In this document: positions 9,306-29,673 of the stretch, in pieces
Numbering within the stretch: the first letter of the stretch is position 1
How the letters are laid out: each line of letters starts with the position of its first letter
NCBI GenBank assembly: GCA_021810375.1
Contig: JAJZJB010000006.1
Span: 1 to 35,932, forward strand
Direction: 5' to 3'
DNA length: 35,932 nucleotides
Origin: Microcaldota archaeon
GTDB lineage: Archaea > Micrarchaeota > Micrarchaeia > Micrarchaeales > CABMGC01
The notes under the pieces: generated by a model
Database searches by the model: none
Told to the model about the DNA's origin: nothing
The model's input: the letters and a program-made list of their open reading frames with translations, nothing else
Made by a program: the position numbers and the translations under genes

Positions 9306-10856
9306 TTACTGTACGGCACCGAAGCTGACGCCAGGCATGACTCCGTTGGGCGGGTAGGCACGCATATAGAACCACACTACGTTTATAGGATTCCCTATTA
9401 CTGATGTGGATGTATAATACGAAGCCGAAATGCCAACATAGCCATTCGTAGCACCCTTGTCGTTAGCAGCAGTGTAACTTGTTGCAGCTAAAGTTGTTAA
9501 TGAAGTTGCAGTTTCTCCGTATCCAGCATATAAAGTACCACTCCACGTTCCGGCAGCGTCGGTTATGCTCATAGTATAAGGTGTAGAAACTGCACCTTGA
9601 TATTCACTATTTACAACCCACGACACCAAATCATTCAGGAAAGAAATAAATCCTGCGCCATTAGAAGCTTGTTGCTCAATAAACCTATAACCAAGCGTAT
9701 CTATAGCATTTGGGGTAGCTACTGCTATTATTCCTACCCTTGCATTTGCTTCTCCAGTGTAATTGAAAGCCATACTTAATATATAATTTCCATTTGCAGG
9801 GTAGCTTGTACTTTCAATTAAAGCTGCCGGGCCTCCATTATAACTGCCAGTTGTAGCCGTTTGCTGCAAGTAGCCGTTTGCAGTTGTCCACGTTCCACCA
9901 ACAAAAGTAAATGATGTCCAGCTTTTTCCGCCATATTGTGTAAACACACTCTCTCCATCGTCATACTGGGCATAGGTGCTAGAGAGCTGGGGCGCCTCTC
10001 CTATTCCGTTTGCGCCTGTGCTCGATAGCAGGTTCGTGGTTGGACTTGCAAAACCAAGGTAAACGGTTATAGAGTTAGACGCAGGTATGCCGTTCGCCAG
10101 GTTGAGCCATGCCGTGATGGTGCCGCTGCTGTTGCTCTCTATCCATGCAGGTATAACAGATCCGCCTTCAGTAAAGAATTCAAAATTTGCGGTATTGCCG
10201 CTGTAATTTATGTAGTTAGAATAGCCTGGTCCGGAGAACTGCACCATCTGCTGGAAAGGCGCAGGCGTGGCGGATGTCTGCGAATTTGTAAGTGTAATCG
10301 GCACATAAGCAACTATGCCTGAAGGCACGGCAGAAGGTTTAGGCTGCAGGATAGCACTGGAACTTGAAGCGGCTTTCACAGACAATGCAGCTATCTCTAC
10401 AGTCTGTGTTCCTCCGGATCCTGTATAACTGATATACACGTGGCCAGTAAGTAGCGTGCCTAACGCATAGGATGATGGATACGGTAAGCCCGTAGGAAGT
10501 TGAATGCTAACAGTTGCAACCTGTCCAGGTTGCAACGTTCCCACGCTTGCACTTGCGGCAACGCCCAATGACCCGCCGCTTGGAACGAAATAAACGTTTA
10601 CATTGCTAAGGGATACCGCAGTTGCCTGGCCAATATTTAAACTGAGAATGCCGCCTGTCGAGAGAGTTGCGTCTTGGCAGTAGTATCCTGCAACGGCTAC
10701 ACAGCTTGTTCCCAGAGAAGATGCCCCGTTAAAGACTCCTAGGTAATACAAGACCCCCAGGACTATTGCGATGATGAGGATTGCCCATCCGTATGTCATC
10801 AGGTATTCCGTGGCGCTTTGCACTTTTCTGTTCTTTTGTGTAGATCTGCCATGCAT
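9306..10856 (-). CDS. Large type IV pilin-like protein (class III signal peptide) with DUF2341-like domain
   Basis: N-terminus KNRKVQSATEYLMTYGWAILIIAIVLGVLYYLGVF; mid-region NYSGNTANFEFFTEGGSVIPAWIESNSSGTITAWLNLANGIPASNSITVYLGFASP. Confidence 0.85.
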   Translation of the reverse strand: MHGRSTQKNRKVQSATEYLMTYGWAILIIAIVLGVLYYLGVFNGASSLGTSCVAVAGYYCQDATLSTGGILSLNIGQATAVSLSNVNVYFVPSGGSLGVAASASVGTLQPGQVATVSIQLPTGLPYPSSYALGTLLTGHVYISYTGSGGTQTVEIAALSVKAASSSSAILQPKPSAVPSGIVAYVPITLTNSQTSATPAPFQQMVQFSGPGYSNYINYSGNTANFEFFTEGGSVIPAWIESNSSGTITAWLNLANGIPASNSITVYLGFASPTTNLLSSTGANGIGEAPQLSSTYAQYDDGESVFTQYGGKSWTSFTFVGGTWTTANGYLQQTATTGSYNGGPAALIESTSYPANGNYILSMAFNYTGEANARVGIIAVATPNAIDTLGYRFIEQQASNGAGFISFLNDLVSWVVNSEYQGAVSTPYTMSITDAAGTWSGTLYAGYGETATSLTTLAATSYTAANDKGATNGYVGISASYYTSTSVIGNPINVVWFYMRAYPPNGVMPGVSFGAVQ

Positions 10857-11070: not shown

Positions 11071-12456
11071 CTATCTGCCTGCCATGCGCCTGGGGTCAAG
11101 TATTTTCCTTAATTGCTCCTTGCCGAGCACCTTCATCTCAAGGCAAACTTGCATGACTGTCTTGTTTTCCTTATATGCCTTTTTTGCTATCTCTGCCGCC
11201 TTGCTGTATCCTATATAAGGGTTTAGTGCAGTGGCTATGGAGAGGTCTTCATTTACCTGCCTGGACATCTCCTTCCTGGAAGCCACGACCCCCCTCACGC
11301 ATCTCTCCGAGAATGCATTTACCGCATTGGAAAGTATGCTTATGCCGAATATAATATTATACGCAATTATCGGCGTGAATACGTTGAGCTCCAGCTGTGC
11401 GTCCTCTGCGGCATTTGTCACAGTCCTGTCTACGCCCATTATCTGCAGGCAGACCATGCCCAGCATTTCAGGTATACTCGGGTTGACCTTCCCAGGCATT
11501 ATTGAGGATCCTGGCATGATCGATGGCAGTATGAGTTCGTGCATGCCTGCCCTGGGTCCCGAAGCGAGGAGCCTGAAATCGCTTGATATCTTCATGAGCA
11601 CCACCGCAACTTCCTTGATTGCGTCGTTGAGAGCAAGTATCTCAACCCTGTTCTGGGTGGTAGCAAACCTGTTCGTGCTAGCTATAAACCTTTCTCCTGT
11701 TATCCTGTTGAGCTCAATGATTGCATATTTCGAGTATTCCCGCCCCGCGTTCAGGCCTGTTCCTACTGCAGTGCCTCCCAGAGGCAATTCAAGCAGCTCA
11801 TCTGCTGCGCGCTCCAGCATCTTAGTAACCCGCTCTATTTCCCCAGCATATCCGGAGAATTCTTCGCCCAACGTCATCGGCACCGCATCCTGAAGATGCG
11901 TCCTGCCTATCTTGACTATGTCTGCAAATTCCCTTGATTTTGCATACATGAGTATCTGCAGGTGCCGCAGCTGCGGCATCAGCCTCTTCTCTACGGAGAG
12001 CCTCGCCGCTATGTTCAGTGCAGATGGATATGTATCATTTGTCGACTGTGACATATTAACGTGGTCGTTGGGGTGTACTATTGAGTAGTCGCCTTTCTTT
12101 CCTCCCAGGATGCCTATCGCCATGTTTGCGATAACCTCGTTTACATTCATGTTTGTGCTGGTGCCTGCGCCAGCCTGGAAGATGTCTATAGGAAATTGGT
12201 CATCACCCCTCCTCTTGAGAAGCGACTTGCAGGCCCTTGCAATCGCTGTGCCCCTCCTCCTGTCCAGCTTCCCTGCCTTCATGTTTGCCAGGACCGCGGC
12301 TTCCTTAAGCATTAAATATGCGTCTATCAGCTCCGCCGGCACGCGTATCCCAGATATCCGGAAATTCTCCAGTGTCCTTGCTGTGTCTGAGCCGTAGTAT
12401 GCATTCCCCGGAACCTTAACATTGCCCAGTGCGTCCTTTTCTATCCTATACCTCAT
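11071..12456 (-). CDS. fumC: Class II fumarate hydratase (aspartase/fumarase superfamily)
   Basis: AGAGTSTNMNVNEVIAN, GSSIMPGKVNPSIPEM, TALNPYIGYSKAAEIAKKAYKE; next to succinate dehydrogenase genes. Aspartase not fully excluded. Confidence 0.88.
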   Translation of the reverse strand: MRYRIEKDALGNVKVPGNAYYGSDTARTLENFRISGIRVPAELIDAYLMLKEAAVLANMKAGKLDRRRGTAIARACKSLLKRRGDDQFPIDIFQAGAGTSTNMNVNEVIANMAIGILGGKKGDYSIVHPNDHVNMSQSTNDTYPSALNIAARLSVEKRLMPQLRHLQILMYAKSREFADIVKIGRTHLQDAVPMTLGEEFSGYAGEIERVTKMLERAADELLELPLGGTAVGTGLNAGREYSKYAIIELNRITGERFIASTNRFATTQNRVEILALNDAIKEVAVVLMKISSDFRLLASGPRAGMHELILPSIMPGSSIMPGKVNPSIPEMLGMVCLQIMGVDRTVTNAAEDAQLELNVFTPIIAYNIIFGISILSNAVNAFSERCVRGVVASRKEMSRQVNEDLSIATALNPYIGYSKAAEIAKKAYKENKTVMQVCLEMKVLGKEQLRKILDPRRMAGR

Positions 12457-12460
12457 GCAA

Positions 12461-13456
12461 TCATCCCTCCTCTTTTTTTGCCATATCCTTCATCAATTCT
12501 CCTTTCAGGAGCTGTATTGCTCCGGCCGGGTCAACTCCTTTCGGGCACACCTTCGAGCAGGCCCCGGCGAATTCGCATCCCCACACTCCGTCCAGCGTGT
12601 CAACTTCAAGCAGCCTCTTTACCCCCTTCTGATCTGCTTTATCTGCATGGTATCTATATACCTGCGAAAGTGCCTGTGGGCCTATGAACTCCGGATTGGA
12701 ATTGACTACGGGGCACGCGTCGAGGCAGAGCCCGCACATTATGCAGTACGAGTAAGGCAAGAACTTGTCGATATCTTCGCGACTGAGCTTGAACGGCTCC
12801 TTGGCTCCGTATTTCTCGCGCTTGTCATGCCTGTACAGCCCCGGATCTACGGACATGTGCCTCTCGAAGAAATCATCGAAGTCGGTAACGAGGTCCTTAA
12901 GCAGAGGATGCCCATACATGGGCTCTACCGTTATCTCATGGTCTGCCATCTTGTCGAATACGTTGGTCTCGCATGCCAGCGAAGGCTTGCCGTTTATCAC
13001 CATGCCACACGAGCCGCATATACCCATCCTGCAGCTGTATCTTACCGCAAGGGTCGGATCCTGCTTGCTCCGTATGTCCAGCAAAGCAGAGAGGACAGTG
13101 GTGTTCTTGTCCGCCTCGACCTTATACACCTCGTTTCGCATTGCCTTATTCTCATTATCGAACCTGTTGACCACAATGTCTATCATCTTTGTCCCGCTGC
13201 CGGTCCTTTCCTGCACCTGCCGGCCTATCTGCATGCGTAAAGGCATAGCCACCTCCTCCGCAACGTGGCGTTTGTGTATATACACCTCAGCAAATCCTAT
13301 AACCCCGAAGACTATCAGGCCAAGTGATGCTAGCGCAAGCAGTACCGTGCTAACAAGGTACATGCCATAGAATGTGCTTATTATCCTCAGGTAGAGGAGT
13401 ATTGGCACGCCCACTAGCGATGCATAAAGCAGTATCATGAACCTAGATGCCCTCAT
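12461..13456 (-). CDS. sdhB: Succinate dehydrogenase/fumarate reductase iron-sulfur subunit with N-terminal two-TM domain
   Basis: YSCRMGICGSCGMVINGKPSLAC [2Fe-2S], CIMCGLCLDACPVV [4Fe-4S], CEFAGACSKVCPKG [3Fe-4S]; start ATG overlaps upstream stop as ATGA. Confidence 0.92.
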   Translation of the reverse strand: MRASRFMILLYASLVGVPILLYLRIISTFYGMYLVSTVLLALASLGLIVFGVIGFAEVYIHKRHVAEEVAMPLRMQIGRQVQERTGSGTKMIDIVVNRFDNENKAMRNEVYKVEADKNTTVLSALLDIRSKQDPTLAVRYSCRMGICGSCGMVINGKPSLACETNVFDKMADHEITVEPMYGHPLLKDLVTDFDDFFERHMSVDPGLYRHDKREKYGAKEPFKLSREDIDKFLPYSYCIMCGLCLDACPVVNSNPEFIGPQALSQVYRYHADKADQKGVKRLLEVDTLDGVWGCEFAGACSKVCPKGVDPAGAIQLLKGELMKDMAKKEEG

Positions 13457-13878
13457 ACCAACCACATTGCAGATATTATTATGAATCCCAGCACCCACAC
13501 TGCAAGGATGCCGTATGGAAATGCCCGGTATGCAGCCAGGGCCGACTTATTCTTGACAGCAAAGTTAACGAATGACTGGTTTACGTCAGGCGAGGAAAGC
13601 CCCCTGCTGGCTATCAGCGCAAAGGCTTTCGCAGTCTCGTAGACATGCGGCGTTATAAGTGCCCAGACTACCAGCACCATCACCTCTATGTATCCTGTGT
13701 TTATGTATTGCGGTGCAAAAATCATTGTGCCAAGTATAGCAATTCCTATTATTACCGACGCGAAGATCAGGATCCTATACGCCGCCATGTGCACAAAGCC
13801 CTCTATGTCGAATCCGAGAAGCCTCAGTATATTCCTCTGCCTTCCCCTAGTGTCGTAAGTCTCTTTCATTAGCATCAC
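13453..13878 (-). CDS. Putative succinate dehydrogenase membrane anchor (three predicted TM helices)
   Basis: Hydrophobic 141-aa ORF between sdhA and sdhB; internal ITPHVYETAKAF. Confidence 0.75.
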   Translation of the reverse strand: MMLMKETYDTRGRQRNILRLLGFDIEGFVHMAAYRILIFASVIIGIAILGTMIFAPQYINTGYIEVMVLVVWALITPHVYETAKAFALIASRGLSSPDVNQSFVNFAVKNKSALAAYRAFPYGILAVWVLGFIIISAMWLV

Positions 13879-15621
13879 TCAATAAACCCTCGGCTGCGGC
13901 TTCCATTTCGTTATGCTTACTGGCATATAGCTTATCCTGCAGCCTGCAATGCCCTTCTGTATTATTGTGTGCTTAAGCCAGTGCTTATCGTCACGCTCTG
14001 GATATTCCCTTACCGCATGTGCGCCTCTACTCTCTCTCCTACGCAACGCGCACTCAGCTACCAGCAGCCCCAGTTCCACCATGCTTCCTATTTCCAGGGC
14101 ATCCCGTAGGTTCGCGTTATACGTCCTCCTCTTGTCCTTTATGTATATGTCTGCAAAACGCGATCTTATGCGCGAGAGATCCTTTCTTGCGCGTGCCATT
14201 CCCTTCGTGTTCCTATATACGTAAAGGTGCTTGCTCATTGTGTTCTGCAACTCAGTGTACAAGGCATAAGGATCCTCGCTGCCCTTTCCTGAGAGCATCT
14301 CCTCTATCCGTCTTTCCTCCTGCCACGCCTTGTCCTCTGCAATCTTGCTCTTTCCAGCCTTATTGTGTGCCACATGCCTTGCAACTGCAATTCCAACTAT
14401 CCTGCCCCACACGGAGCACTGGCTCAGTGAGTTGCTGCCCAGCCTGTTTGAGCCGTGCACGCTAACGCATGCGCATTCACCAACAGCCCAGAGTCCTTCG
14501 GCATGCCCGGATCCAGCGCCAAGCATTATGTTCCCGGCCGTGTTTGTGTGTATTCCACCCATCGTGAAATGCGCAGCAGGCCGCACAGGCAAAGGCTCGG
14601 TTGCCGGATCCAGTCCCAGCATCTTTCTGGATATATCCCGTATCATCGGCAATCTTTCGTCTATAAGCTTCTGATCAAGGTGCCTCAAGTCAAGATGCAC
14701 ATACCCTAGCCCGGAGAGCCTGTCGGAGAAACCCCTGCCCTTCTCTATTTCCGTTACTATGGCCCTAGAGACTATGTCCCTTGGGGCAAGCTCCATCTTG
14801 GATTTTGCATATGTCTCCATGAAGCGTTTGCCCTCTGCGTTTATGAGGTATGCCCCCTCCCCGCGTGCAGCCTCGGTTATGAGAATGCCGCTTGGCACAA
14901 GTGCCGTTGGATGAAACTGCACAAATTCAATATCCTTCAGAGGAAGGCCAGCTCTGTATGCCAGCGCGATTCCATCTCCTGTGCTCGAATATGAGGTGGT
15001 AGTGAAATCATATATGCGTGAAAACCCCCCTGTAGCAATGACGCATGCGCCTGATCTTATGAACGTTGATTCTCCGGTTGCTATATCAATCATATGCAGG
15101 CCCAGGAACTTCCCCTTCTCAACAATCAGCGAGGTCACCATGTGCTCATGGAAGATCTCTATCCCCTTGTGCGATGTCAATTCGTCATAGAGCGCGCGCA
15201 TCATGAAGAATCCTGTCTTGTCTGCCGCGAAGGCCGTCCTGTTAACGCTCATGCCTCCGAAGGCTCGCTCGTTTATGTGTCCATCACGGTTCCGGTTCCA
15301 CGGCACCCCCAGATGCTCAAAGAACTTGATCTCTTTCGGCGCGTTCTTTACGAGGATCTCTACCGCATCTTGGTCTGCGAGATAGTCGGATCCCTTTATC
15401 GTATCGTATGCATGAAGGTGCTCAGAATCCTTGTTCTCGACAGGATACAGCACCCCGGATATCCCTCCTTCCGCAGCAACGGAGTGGCTGCGCATAGCGT
15501 GTATCTTTGATATCAGTGCAATACTGAGCTTCTCAGACGATTCAAGCTCCGCATGCAACGCGGTGGTCATGCCGGCTATGCCACTTCCAATCACCACCAC
15601 ATCGAAATCCCTGGTTTGCAT
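13879..15621 (-). CDS. sdhA: Succinate dehydrogenase/fumarate reductase flavoprotein subunit
   Basis: DFDVVVIGSGIAGMTTALHAE, MRSHSVAAEGGI flavin-attachment region, RPAAHFTMGGIHTN; internal Met used as start. Confidence 0.96.
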   Translation of the reverse strand: MQTRDFDVVVIGSGIAGMTTALHAELESSEKLSIALISKIHAMRSHSVAAEGGISGVLYPVENKDSEHLHAYDTIKGSDYLADQDAVEILVKNAPKEIKFFEHLGVPWNRNRDGHINERAFGGMSVNRTAFAADKTGFFMMRALYDELTSHKGIEIFHEHMVTSLIVEKGKFLGLHMIDIATGESTFIRSGACVIATGGFSRIYDFTTTSYSSTGDGIALAYRAGLPLKDIEFVQFHPTALVPSGILITEAARGEGAYLINAEGKRFMETYAKSKMELAPRDIVSRAIVTEIEKGRGFSDRLSGLGYVHLDLRHLDQKLIDERLPMIRDISRKMLGLDPATEPLPVRPAAHFTMGGIHTNTAGNIMLGAGSGHAEGLWAVGECACVSVHGSNRLGSNSLSQCSVWGRIVGIAVARHVAHNKAGKSKIAEDKAWQEERRIEEMLSGKGSEDPYALYTELQNTMSKHLYVYRNTKGMARARKDLSRIRSRFADIYIKDKRRTYNANLRDALEIGSMVELGLLVAECALRRRESRGAHAVREYPERDDKHWLKHTIIQKGIAGCRISYMPVSITKWKPQPRVY

Positions 15622-15802
15622 GCTACCAATTACTATCCTAAAATATAAAAGTATAAAATAGAAACGTAGCGGCACATGTACCGAATTTATCATTCATTGT
15701 GCGCATTCCCCAATGGTGATGCCCAAGTCTCCGCTTAGGCAATCATACGCATTTAAAGTATCTTTTTAAACCTTGCTTCATTAGTATTATCGGGATATTG
15801 GC

Positions 15803-24985: not shown

Positions 24986-26359
24986 TCACCGAATAGATTT
25001 TTTCCCGTAGAAGAAATGTATTGGGGCTCCCAATGCGGCTTCCGCTGCCTCCTGCACCGCCTCTGAGAAAGTAGGGTGCGGGTGTATGGTATCCGCTATG
25101 TCCTCAACCGTGGCACCCATCTCTATAGCTAGTGCAGCCTCGCTTATCAGTGCATTCGCGTCCTCCCCGACGATCTCGATACCTCTGACAACGTTATCGC
25201 TGTCGTAAGCTATCTTGACGAATCCGGAAGTCTTGCCAAGAGAGATCGCCCGGCCTATCGCTGTCATGGGGAATTTCGTAATCGATATGCCTTCCCCCTC
25301 TATCGTTCCTGCTATTGCGACTTCAGGGTCGGAGAATATCACTGCTGGTATTACGAGGTTATCGAAGCCCGAGTTCCTCCCTGCAGCTACCTCTGCAGCT
25401 ACCACTCCCTGCCTTATGGCCTTGTGCGCCAACATGGGTTCGCCAGCAACATCCCCTATGGCCAGTATGTTTGGGTCGCTGGTCCTCATACCTGTGTCAA
25501 CCGTGATGAATCCTTTTGCGTCAAGCTTCACCTTCGTCGTCTCGAGGCTAAGCCCTTCGGTATACGGGGTCAGTCCTATCGCTACAACTATGACATCCGC
25601 AGCAACCTCCTCGCCATTGCTCAGCTTAACAGAGTTGCCTGTATGCGATACTGCTTCGGCTCCGGCATGGACCGTTATCCCAAGCTCCTCCATTCTCTTC
25701 TTTATCTCAGCCACGGCGTCCTTGTCGAAGCGCGAGAGTACGTCAGACCTTGCTATTATGTGTACCTTGGTTCCCATCTTCGCATACATGGTTCCTATCT
25801 CTACAGAAACATATCCCGCACCAAGTATTGCCATGGTAACCGGTATGCTGTCTAGCATTAGCGCCTGCTTGTAGTCGATCACATTGCCGCCCAGCTCAAA
25901 TCCCTTCATCTTCGCCGGTACGGATCCTGTTGCTATTATGGCCTTCTTGAAATCTAAGGACGTTCCGTTTGTAAGCTGCACGCTACTTGAAGAAAGGAAT
26001 GTCGCCGCGCCTTTAACCACCTCTATGCCGTTGGACTTACAGAGGAAATTCACTCCGTCCTCAAGCTTCTTCGAGACACCCATGCGCCATCCGTACATCG
26101 TCTTGGCATCAAGCGCTATGCCTGTGACGTTTATCCCCATCTTCTGCGCATTCTGGGCTTCATGGAAAAGATCCGCGATGTGTATAAGCGTTTTGGACGG
26201 TATGCAGGCATAGTTCAGGCAATGGCCCCCCATCTTATCCTTCTCGACAATGGTTACGCTAAGTCCTAGCTCCGCAGCCCTTATTGCAGCAACGTATCCG
26301 CCAACGCCTCCGCCTATCACTGCCAGGTCTACCTCTTCAGGAAGGGATCCCATAACCAT
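24986..26359 (-). CDS. lpdA: Dihydrolipoamide dehydrogenase (E3)
   Basis: GGGVGGYVAAIRAAELG; GGHCLNYACIPSKTLI redox-active disulfide; HPHPTFSEAVQEAA. Confidence 0.96.
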   Translation of the reverse strand: MVMGSLPEEVDLAVIGGGVGGYVAAIRAAELGLSVTIVEKDKMGGHCLNYACIPSKTLIHIADLFHEAQNAQKMGINVTGIALDAKTMYGWRMGVSKKLEDGVNFLCKSNGIEVVKGAATFLSSSSVQLTNGTSLDFKKAIIATGSVPAKMKGFELGGNVIDYKQALMLDSIPVTMAILGAGYVSVEIGTMYAKMGTKVHIIARSDVLSRFDKDAVAEIKKRMEELGITVHAGAEAVSHTGNSVKLSNGEEVAADVIVVAIGLTPYTEGLSLETTKVKLDAKGFITVDTGMRTSDPNILAIGDVAGEPMLAHKAIRQGVVAAEVAAGRNSGFDNLVIPAVIFSDPEVAIAGTIEGEGISITKFPMTAIGRAISLGKTSGFVKIAYDSDNVVRGIEIVGEDANALISEAALAIEMGATVEDIADTIHPHPTFSEAVQEAAEAALGAPIHFFYGKKSIR

Positions 26360-26363
26360 CTCA

Positions 26364-27605
26364 TCAGCCCAGCATCTCCAGGAATTCTGGATCCTCGAGA
26401 TACTTTATCAGCGTATTGCCAAACCTTACTGCATCGGCTCCATCAACAACCCTATGGTCGAACACTAGAGAGAAAGGCAACTGCTTGCCTATCTTGACCT
26501 GATTGCCCTCAACCATCGGCGTGTCCCGTATCAGGTGGACTCCTAGTATGGCAACTTCAGGAGGGTTTATTATTGGCACAGAGAGATACCCGCCGCCCAG
26601 GCTTCCTATATTTGTTATGGTGAAAGTGCTATCTCTCATCTCATCTATCGTTATGGCCTGTTTGTTGAGCTTGTCGCGTAGTTCCGCAAGCTCCTTGGCA
26701 ATCTGAACTATGCTCTTCTTATCCGCATCCCTTATCACCACCACCTTCAGCCCGTCATCGGCCTCCGCAGCGATGCCTATGTTGTAATACTTCTTCAGTA
26801 TCACCTCCTGTTTCTCATGGTCATAGCTGGCGTTGAACCTTGGATTCTCCTTAAGCGCAGCTATAGTCGCCTTTATGATGAAAGGCAGGAATGTTAGTTT
26901 GATACCCAGCCTCTCGGCATTGGGCTTCTCCCTCTTCAATATGCCGTACAGGTGGGTTGCGTTTATCAGGTCCATATGCGCTGCGCTAGGTATCGAAAGG
27001 GCAATCTCCATGTTCCTTGCTATGGCCTTGCGTGTCATGGAGAGCGGAACGCGTTCTACATCACCTCCATGTTTCTCCTCAAGGACCTCGGAGAATTTCG
27101 GTGCCGCTTTCTGTTGCTGCACCTGCTGCTTCTTTGCCATGTAGCTCCTGACGTCGTTTTCAAGTATCCTGCCGTTTGGTCCTGTGCCGGTTACCTGAGA
27201 AAGGTCAATCCCCAGCTCCCTTGCCAGATGCCTTACAGAAGGCGTGGCAAATGCCTCCCCCTGCTGTGGAACTGCAACGCGCTGCGATGTCACTGGCGCT
27301 TGCATTGATGATTCCCTATTCTCCTGCTGCTGCACCTGCTGTGCAGGCTGCATTGAAGTATTCTGTAATTCGGAGAGCTCGCCTACGTATGCTAATATAT
27401 CGCCGACCTTTACTATCGAGTCTTCCTTTGCAACCAGCTTTGCAACCCCGCTTATTGGCGCGGGTATATTGACAACTGCTTTATCAGTCTCTATCTGCAC
27501 CAGTGGCTGGTCCTCGTTCACCTGCTGCCCATCTTTGACAAGCCATTTCCTGAGATGCCCCTCTGTTATGCCCTCTCCAACGTCTACGAATTTGAGCGTT
27601 TTCAT
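26364..27605 (-). CDS. pdhC: 2-oxoacid dehydrogenase E2, dihydrolipoamide acyltransferase
   Basis: Lipoyl domain ETDKAVVNIPAPISG; peripheral-subunit-binding domain TPSVRHLARELGIDLSQVTGTGPNGRILENDV; catalytic DHRVVDGADAVRF. Confidence 0.96.
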   Translation of the reverse strand: MKTLKFVDVGEGITEGHLRKWLVKDGQQVNEDQPLVQIETDKAVVNIPAPISGVAKLVAKEDSIVKVGDILAYVGELSELQNTSMQPAQQVQQQENRESSMQAPVTSQRVAVPQQGEAFATPSVRHLARELGIDLSQVTGTGPNGRILENDVRSYMAKKQQVQQQKAAPKFSEVLEEKHGGDVERVPLSMTRKAIARNMEIALSIPSAAHMDLINATHLYGILKREKPNAERLGIKLTFLPFIIKATIAALKENPRFNASYDHEKQEVILKKYYNIGIAAEADDGLKVVVIRDADKKSIVQIAKELAELRDKLNKQAITIDEMRDSTFTITNIGSLGGGYLSVPIINPPEVAILGVHLIRDTPMVEGNQVKIGKQLPFSLVFDHRVVDGADAVRFGNTLIKYLEDPEFLEMLG

Positions 27606-27607
27606 GT

Positions 27608-28576
27608 TTATGCCTCCATTACCTTGTCTATCGCCTGCGATACCTTCAGCGCATTCGGCACATAGAATTTCTCGTATCCGGGGAACGGGTACGGCATGCT
27701 CGGAGATCCGACCCTGACTATGGGCGCATCGAGCTCAAAGATCGCCTTCTCCGCGATCCTTGCAGAAATCTCTGCTCCTACGCCGAAGCTCAGCGAGGCC
27801 TCGTGCGCTATTACTACCCTTCCTGTCTTCTTCACGCTTGCAAGTATTGCATCCTCATCAAGAGGATTTATGGTCCTAAGGTCTATTATCTCCGCATCAA
27901 GATTCTTCTTGGCAACGACATCTTTAACTACGGGAACCATTGTGCCGTATGTTACTATTGTAAGGGCGCTTCCTTCCCTCACTACGCTTGCCTTTCCTAT
28001 AGGCACTTCATATGCCTCGTCCGGCACCTCCTGTTTGAAGAGCCGGTAAAGCTTCGTAGGCTCTAGGAATATCACCGGGTCGTTCATGCGAAGCGCCTTT
28101 ATCATAAGTCCCTTCGCATCGTATGGCGTTGACGGTTCAACAACAATCAAGCCGCCCATGTGTGCATAATACGTCTCCGGGCTCTCCGAATGGTGCTCCA
28201 AAGTCCTTACGCCTCCGCTTACCGGGGTCCTGACCACCATGGGGAGCTGTATCGTCGACCGTGACCTGCTTCTATACCGAGCTGCGTGGTTGACGAGTTG
28301 AGAGAAACCGAGGAACATGAATCCCGCAAATTGTGCTTCGGGTACCGGGTGCAGCCCTCCTATTGCCATTCCTATTGCAGTGCCCATTATGCCAGACTCT
28401 GCAAGCGGCGTATCGATAACCCTCTTTTCCCCAAACTTGTCCATGAGCCCGTCCGTGACCCTGAAGACTCCGCCGTCCCTGCCTATATCCTCCCCTAGGA
28501 GCACAACATTCTCATTCTCACGCATTCCCAGTTCTAAGGCGCTATTAAGCGCCGTTACCATATTGATTTGCATCAT
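27608..28576 (-). CDS. pdhB: 2-oxoacid dehydrogenase E1 beta subunit
   Basis: VVLLGEDIGRDGGVFRVTDGLMDKFGEKRVIDTPLAESGIMGTAIGMA; FPGYEKFYVP. Confidence 0.96.
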   Translation of the reverse strand: MMQINMVTALNSALELGMRENENVVLLGEDIGRDGGVFRVTDGLMDKFGEKRVIDTPLAESGIMGTAIGMAIGGLHPVPEAQFAGFMFLGFSQLVNHAARYRSRSRSTIQLPMVVRTPVSGGVRTLEHHSESPETYYAHMGGLIVVEPSTPYDAKGLMIKALRMNDPVIFLEPTKLYRLFKQEVPDEAYEVPIGKASVVREGSALTIVTYGTMVPVVKDVVAKKNLDAEIIDLRTINPLDEDAILASVKKTGRVVIAHEASLSFGVGAEISARIAEKAIFELDAPIVRVGSPSMPYPFPGYEKFYVPNALKVSQAIDKVMEA

Positions 28577-29673
28577 TCCCCACCCTCTTCTCCCTGCCAG
28601 AAGTTATTCTTCAATGCGTCGTCAAGTTCGTTCTGCAAGACCTGCGGCACAAAGCTATATACGTGTTTGAACATGACTGTCGGATCTTCCTTGAATTGCT
28701 CTGCCTTCTCAACCGCAGCGTCTATTGCTTTTGCATGCTCATCCAGTGTCTTCTTATCGAGCTCATCATTCCATAATCCCTTCGCCTCCAGATACTTCCT
28801 TATGCGCAGTATGGGATCCCTGGCCTTCCATATCTCAACATCTGCATCAGGTCTATATTTTGTCGGATCGTCAGCCGTTGTATGTATGCCCATCCTGTAC
28901 GTCATGCACTCGATTACTGTGGGCCCGTACTTTGCGTTCTCTATTGCCTCTTTTGTAGCCTTATAGACTGCAACAACGTCATTCCCGTCTACCTGTACGC
29001 ACGGTATTCCTGCAGCGAATGCCTTCTGGGCAAGGGTCTGCGATGCAGTCTGGTTCTTCCTTGGCACTGATATGGCCCATTCATTGTTCTCTATTATAAT
29101 AACGAGCGGAGCCCTCCATACTCCTGCAAAATTCATGGCCTCGTAGAAATCGCCCTCTGAGGTTCCCCCATCTCCTACATAAGCTACAACAACGGCATCC
29201 TTGCCTGCATACCTCTGTGCGAATGCGAGCCCTGCAGCATGCGGCATCTGCGTGGCAACCGGTACAGCTATCGGAGTGCCGCCTACATTCTTGGGATAGG
29301 CATTTCCTTCCTCGTATCCTCTCCAGTATATGAACATGTACTCAAGAGGTATGCCCCTCACAATGTACACGCCGTGCTGCCTGAATGCGGGAACAAAAAG
29401 GTCATCCTTTCTCATTGCGCTTGCGCTTCCTATCTGTGTTGCCTCCTCCCCCAGCAGCGGGGCATACGTTACTGCCCTGCCCTGCCTCTGCAGGCTCAGC
29501 ACCTTTGCATCAAATGCCCTGGCGTAGAGCATGTTCTTGTACATCTCCGCTATCTTTGCATCATCTATGTCATTTGGGAAACGTGCAGGGTCTGCATTCC
29601 CATTCTCATCTATTACCTGCAGATACTTTACCTCTCCGCTGAATACGCTGGTTTCCAGAATAAACACCTGCAA
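28573..29673 (-). CDS. pdhA: 2-oxoacid dehydrogenase E1 alpha subunit
   Basis: TPP motif VGDGGTSEGDFYEAMNFAGVWRAPLVIIIENN; non-ATG start (TTG or GTG). Confidence 0.95.
   Translation of the reverse strand: MQVFILETSVFSGEVKYLQVIDENGNADPARFPNDIDDAKIAEMYKNMLYARAFDAKVLSLQRQGRAVTYAPLLGEEATQIGSASAMRKDDLFVPAFRQHGVYIVRGIPLEYMFIYWRGYEEGNAYPKNVGGTPIAVPVATQMPHAAGLAFAQRYAGKDAVVVAYVGDGGTSEGDFYEAMNFAGVWRAPLVIIIENNEWAISVPRKNQTASQTLAQKAFAAGIPCVQVDGNDVVAVYKATKEAIENAKYGPTVIECMTYRMGIHTTADDPTKYRPDADVEIWKARDPILRIRKYLEAKGLWNDELDKKTLDEHAKAIDAAVEKAEQFKEDPTVMFKHVYSFVPQVLQNELDDALKNNFWQGEEGGE

Follow-up and report, generated by a model that had tools for sequence, protein, structure and literature searches.

A two-helix membrane anchor fused to the iron-sulfur subunit SdhB in a probable complex II from one order of Micrarchaeota

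One order of Micrarchaeota probably has a complex II, either a succinate:quinone oxidoreductase or a quinol:fumarate reductase, that is built from three polypeptides with a haem-free 3+2 anchor and in which the two-helix anchor subunit SdhD is joined to the iron-sulfur subunit SdhB. The fusion itself is genuine and has been retained in about 50 genomes of these acid-loving tiny archaea. The gene structure, its conservation, a single fusion as the simplest history, the intact clusters and active site, and the lack of a conserved membrane His were all computed directly. No prior report of such a fusion was found in the open-access literature.

The analyzed window is a stretch of 35,932 nt, contig C5 of a 601-kb, 33-contig Micrarchaeota draft that is 64% complete. 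Its minus strand carries, in tight order, sdhA, sdhC, the sdhD-sdhB fusion, and a fumarase/aspartase-type lyase. The flavoprotein subunit SdhA (580 aa, 13879..15621; a longer ATG form starts at 15693) matches FAD_binding_2 and Succ_DH_flav_C and scores 724 bits against TIGR01812, above the cut-off; in the alignment its FAD-linking His and catalytic residues are conserved across the family. The sdhC-like anchor gene (13453..13869, minus strand) was assigned by alignment and AlphaFold2. The earlier note on this DNA had described it as a 141-aa ORF with three hydrophobic segments; three helices are indeed modelled, and the product has 141 aa from a GTG and 138 aa from an ATG. This gene overlaps the fusion ORF (331 aa, ATG start, 12461..13456, minus strand) by ATGA (-4 nt), again as described earlier. 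Directly downstream of the fusion lies the lyase of the class II fumarase/aspartase superfamily (11071..12456, minus strand), assigned by its PRK12273 and TIGR00979 scores. Thus, both anchor parts, sdhC and the hairpin, are encoded together with sdhA and sdhB in a conserved tight order. Elsewhere in the window, neighboring genes at 24986-29673 resemble, by eye from their translations, a 2-oxoacid dehydrogenase complex (E1 alpha, E1 beta, E2, E3), and a 516-aa protein at 9306-10856 has, also by eye, a pilin-like class III signal at its N-terminus (QSATEYLMTYGWAI).

In the fusion protein, a membrane hairpin precedes a complete SdhB domain. Membrane helix 4 (residues 7-29, 13370..13438, minus strand) contains the invariant Y11 and P18, and helix 5 (residues 33-59, 13280..13360, minus strand) ends in an [E/D]57-x-[Y/F/W] motif; both were delimited by AlphaFold2 and by the alignments of fused and split forms. 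Their pLDDT is mostly 90-95, falling toward the end of helix 5. The following linker of about 29 aa (residues 60-88, 13193..13279, minus strand) is variable and predicted to be disordered, with a pLDDT of about 40 over residues 61-80; according to the model, it is a flexible tether between hairpin and SdhB. The full-length model is of moderate quality (mean pLDDT 72, pTM 0.50), so the placing of the hairpin relative to SdhB is not fixed by it. The SdhB domain (residues 89-331, 12464..13192, minus strand), delimited by profile matches and Foldseek, scores 217 bits with TIGR00384 and also matches PRK05950, both above the curated cut-offs, as well as Pfam Fer2_3 and Fer4_8; Foldseek matches it to the E. 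coli FrdB chain 6awf_F (E 4.8e-19). The [2Fe-2S] ligands C142, C147, C150, and C162 (12971..13033, minus strand), aligned to E. coli FrdB and SdhB, are conserved in 67 of 67 rows, and so are C238, C241, and C244 of the [4Fe-4S] cluster and C248 of the [3Fe-4S] cluster (12713..12745, minus strand). C294 and C300 ([3Fe-4S]) and C304 ([4Fe-4S]) (12545..12577, minus strand) are conserved in 66 of 67, with a gap in one row. The AlphaFold2 model, profiles, and cysteine alignment thus confirm the 331-aa SdhB with two N-terminal hydrophobic segments and all Fe-S motifs that had been noticed initially.

After removal of duplicates, the homologue set comprises 69 distinct loci: 52 fused, 16 split, and one fragment. 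The occurrence of the same fusion in relatives, a point raised by the earlier note, is therefore established for 52 of 69 homologues as a single ORF in about 50 genomes, and continuous homologues running from residue 1 to about residue 325 are present in dozens of genomes at 48-92% identity. The homologues sit in genomes titled Candidatus Micrarchaeota, all phylum-wide matches fall in one order, and none was found outside this order among 295 genomes of the phylum. The fusion also occurs in two records titled Marsarchaeota (L036, L069), which group with Micrarchaeota, L036 being nearly identical to L037; these are probably mislabelled or mixed bins. Two fused copies that differ from each other were present in a single draft (L088 and L089, genome G013; G111), possibly reflecting contamination or a duplicate.

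The 16 split relatives, from genera g29, g31, and g34 and one family-f1 genome (G015), encode the hairpin as a separate gene, sdhD, of 62-70 residues between sdhC and sdhB. The split SdhD keeps the fused-form invariants Y11 and P18 and a terminal E-V-F. Hence, a 3+2 anchor also occurs in unfused form, and relatives with separate six-helix anchors, which the earlier note had named as evidence against its reading, were not found among these unfused loci. In split loci, sdhB begins within the terminal part of sdhD, in most cases 8 nt ahead of the sdhD end, and is read in a different frame. In these loci (L076-L085, L108-L113), the EVF codons hold GAGGT or a close variant, a likely sdhB Shine-Dalgarno sequence. 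Such an overlap could become a fusion through one frame change. In the SdhA+SdhB tree, the fused proteins form one side of a single branch (SH-aLRT 92), and the fusion state changes once, compared with a mean of 19 changes after shuffling and with none of 500 shuffles as low. The tree was rooted on the second SDH type of the order, an outgroup at a very large distance, and it does not resolve the split rows close to the root; a fusion, as opposed to a fission, is therefore the most economical history without being proven. The fusion probably arose once, and it appears that a small two-helix SdhD became joined to SdhB, apparently with no five-helix gene being cut.

Selection acts on the hairpin as on a coding sequence. 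In close pairs, its dN/dS is about 0.12-0.4, corresponding to purifying selection, and that of SdhB is about 0.03-0.08 where dS could be estimated; the dN/dS of the linker is above that of the hairpin, with a relaxed yet coding-like substitution pattern in most pairs. Together with the continuous homologues, these values show that the hairpin and SdhB are translated as one reading frame and that selection acts on the hairpin within it. A fragmented, incomplete draft may raise the suspicion that an assembly error or a frameshift joined two genes. However, the same in-frame fusion recurs in dozens of separate drafts over the whole range of identities given above, the hairpin is under purifying selection, and the tree needs only one event, so this explanation was rejected, its probability being negligible; the read-level indel that the earlier note had named as contrary evidence was not found, the ORF being intact in dozens of genomes. 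Another scenario is that the ORF gives two products, the fused form and a soluble, working SdhB from an internal start at M71. In the window, AGGAGGT (13251-13257) precedes the ATG of M71 by 4 nt (13244-13246; the element spans 13244..13257, minus strand), in the nearest relative an ATG at a nearby position is preceded by AGGAG, and in split relatives the Shine-Dalgarno sequence of sdhB lies in the 3' end of sdhD. However, the 7-nt match is present in one of 52 linkers, 33 of the 52 lack any Shine-Dalgarno match of at least 4 nt before a start-like codon, and many have no ATG, GTG, or TTG at all. Single matches are themselves unremarkable, since 123 of 637 in-frame start-like codons inside SdhB are preceded by a match of at least 4 nt. 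A conserved internal start with a Shine-Dalgarno sequence was not found among the 52 linkers, and we consider two products as the general rule improbable; a minor soluble SdhB product in the window is possible.

The remainder of the anchor is provided by SdhC, modelled with helices at residues 22-51, 59-87, and 108-137 (mean pLDDT 93). In a 59-row alignment, its invariant residues are H27 and R32, where helix 1 begins on the cytoplasmic side, and W125, within helix 3. The charge distribution obeys the positive-inside rule. In the fusion, Lys and Arg occur at the N-terminus and after helix 5 and are nearly absent from the loop that joins the two helices; in SdhC, the pattern orients the N-terminus and the second loop to the inside and the C-terminus to the outside. 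This distribution would place SdhB on the cytoplasmic side with SdhA. A natural consequence is that a two-helix SdhD permits fusion, because both hairpin ends would be cytoplasmic, whereas the C-terminus of a three-helix SdhD would face outside.

The His to which the earlier note had drawn attention lies within ITPHVYETAKAF and is H75 in the 138-aa SdhC, but this position is Gln in about 83% of relatives and thus is no conserved haem ligand. H27 is the only invariant His of SdhC, no axial His was found in SdhC helix 2 or in SdhD, and the alignments contain no conserved membrane-embedded His in the helices of either protein; the His that follows E-V-Y, present in 32 of 50 sequences, is at the end of helix 5 or past it. 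The anchor therefore probably carries no haem, which argues against a type-B dihaem anchor; haem binding through non-His ligands, possible in principle, counts against this reading. Located toward the cytoplasmic face of the membrane, most of the invariant anchor residues (H27 and R32 of SdhC, Y11 and E/D57 of SdhD) point to a quinone site next to the [3Fe-4S] cluster. In the fused proteins, E/D57 is retained while its codon varies and the Shine-Dalgarno role is no longer needed, which argues for a role at the protein level. The equivalents of E. coli SdhB Trp164 and His207 are absent, being Ser/Thr and Glu here, and the predicted quinone site thus differs from that of class C. The acid-x-aromatic end of the hairpin on the cytoplasmic side may recall Asp82-Tyr83 of E. 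coli SdhD.

Neither anchor protein could be linked to known anchors. SdhC has no Pfam match above the cut-off and no sequence match in the PDB, and profiles of SdhC and SdhD gave nothing significant against the Pfam anchor families, PDB chains, or E. coli SdhC, SdhD, FrdC, and FrdD. The top Foldseek matches of the SdhC fold include E. coli SdhD and SdhC, at non-significant values (E about 2, TM-scores 0.35-0.47).

Complex II enzymes are sorted by their membrane anchor into six classes, A-F, of which class B has a one-polypeptide anchor with two haems (PMC10238741). The complex studied here has an SdhA/FrdA with the FAD-linking His, an SdhB/FrdB with ligands for three clusters, and a co-encoded membrane anchor. 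Judged by these sequences, it belongs to the superfamily, and its anchor departs from every class in at least one tested feature. In class B, exemplified by the Wolinella-type quinol:fumarate reductase, the five helices form a single anchor with conserved His for two haems b; here the same total is divided between two polypeptides, three helices on SdhC and two on SdhB, and the conserved membrane His is absent. In classes A and C, conserved His residues bind one or two haems b in a pair of anchors with three helices each, unlike the 3+2 anchor here, in which no membrane-embedded His is conserved. The class C enzymes, E. coli SdhABCD and mitochondrial complex II, share the catalytic residues and cluster order with the complex of the window, and differ in having an axial His, the Trp164/His207 pair, more helices, and no fusion. 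The class E anchor consists of Cys-rich, amphipathic, non-spanning SdhC and SdhD, whereas SdhC of the window has three long hydrophobic helices and no Cys. Neither a single six-helix anchor nor a Rieske-type cluster, the features of class F, is found here. Class D, represented by E. coli FrdABCD, is similar in its flavoprotein, FrdB-like subunit, and two anchor parts; it has no haem ligands, and no conserved ones were found here. In contrast, FrdABCD has two three-helix anchors without sequence similarity to the 3+2 anchor and a soluble FrdB. To our knowledge, SdhB is soluble in all classes A-F; the unusual topology proposed at the outset, an SdhB that carries anchor helices, is thus supported. 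That the complex represents a further class, with a haem-free five-helix anchor of independent or unrecognizable origin, a three-helix SdhC, a two-helix SdhD, and an SdhB made an integral membrane protein by fusion, is plausible, at somewhat less than an even chance.

The earlier note explained the 3+2 arrangement as a five-helix type-B anchor cut so that its last two helices moved onto SdhB. The 3+2 division, with the last two helices on SdhB, stands, and five helices in total are as in type B. The cut is not supported: 16 relatives have unfused 3+2 genes including a separate sdhD, the conserved membrane His for haem is absent, the anchors lack sequence similarity to known ones, and the PDB chain closest to SdhB is E. 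coli FrdB of class D (226 bits), not Wolinella FrdB (132 bits). This scenario is disfavoured and very improbable. A different origin would be a haem-free quinol:fumarate reductase like E. coli Frd (class D) whose three-helix FrdD had lost helix VI by the time of the fusion and which would obtain its fumarate from aspartate via the downstream lyase. SdhB is 39% identical to E. coli FrdB vs 30% to E. coli SdhB, SdhA has the Glu of FrdA at a site where E. coli SdhA has Gln, and the absence of a conserved membrane His fits class D. The lyase, whose homologue is directly downstream in 50 of the 52 fused loci, scores 587 bits with PRK12273 (aspartate ammonia-lyase subfamily), above the cut-off. However, the anchor sequences fail to align with FrdC or FrdD, SdhA is about equally near E. 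coli FrdA (41%) and SdhA (40%), the FrdA-type Glu is common to the other archaeal SDH type of the order, and most Micrarchaeota are reported to have a near-complete citric acid cycle whose complex II supplies the respiratory chain (PMC5864196). We regard an Frd-like origin and function as possible, though less likely than not.

The lyase was expected to be a fumarase; its TIGR00979 (fumC) score of 544 bits is below the cut-off of that family, and together with the PRK12273 match above the cut-off this leaves either a fumarase or an aspartase. Its product may act as a fumarate hydratase of the citric acid cycle or release fumarate from aspartate; in the aspartase case, it would supply fumarate to the adjacent complex II. 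The 64%-complete draft of the window (genome G000) yielded no cytochrome bd subunit I, which about a third of the order has; given this incompleteness and patchy presence, the result does not decide the direction of catalysis. Succinate oxidation is only slightly favoured.

Other genera of the same order have a second SDH, encoded as sdhA-sdhB-sdhC-small ORF. Its SdhB is soluble, unfused, and about 30% identical to the SdhB described here; its sdhC product has about 220-245 aa and several hydrophobic segments. Many of its loci end in a tiny membrane ORF: downstream of L090-L107 there is often an ORF of 53-60 aa that contains a YRYPxFF motif and one or two hydrophobic segments, another possible tiny anchor. 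The SdhA of other Micrarchaeota was placed in a Thermoplasmatales-like group, which fits this second SDH, and the SdhA sequences of ARMAN-2 and Family 1 Micrarchaeota were reported to be closest to that of Caldisphaera lagunensis (PMC5864196).

For the three-polypeptide complex as a whole, we infer its assembly, the absence of haem, the quinone site, and the direction of catalysis. SdhA would handle succinate and fumarate, and the [2Fe-2S], [4Fe-4S], and [3Fe-4S] clusters of SdhB would carry electrons between SdhA and a quinone whose binding site is at the junction of SdhB with the cytoplasmic ends of the five membrane helices. Three of these helices would come from SdhC and two from SdhD, the latter covalently tied to the N-terminus of SdhB by the flexible linker. 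H27 and R32 of SdhC and Y11 and E/D57 of SdhD would probably shape the quinone site.

In summary, this clade provides a minimal five-helix, apparently haem-free anchor together with a membrane-spanning SdhB, and both the fused and the unfused states occur in sister lineages. It thereby opens questions about the need for haem in complex II, the fewest helices that can make a quinone site, and the role of a tether in assembly, the last of these in very small cells living in acid.
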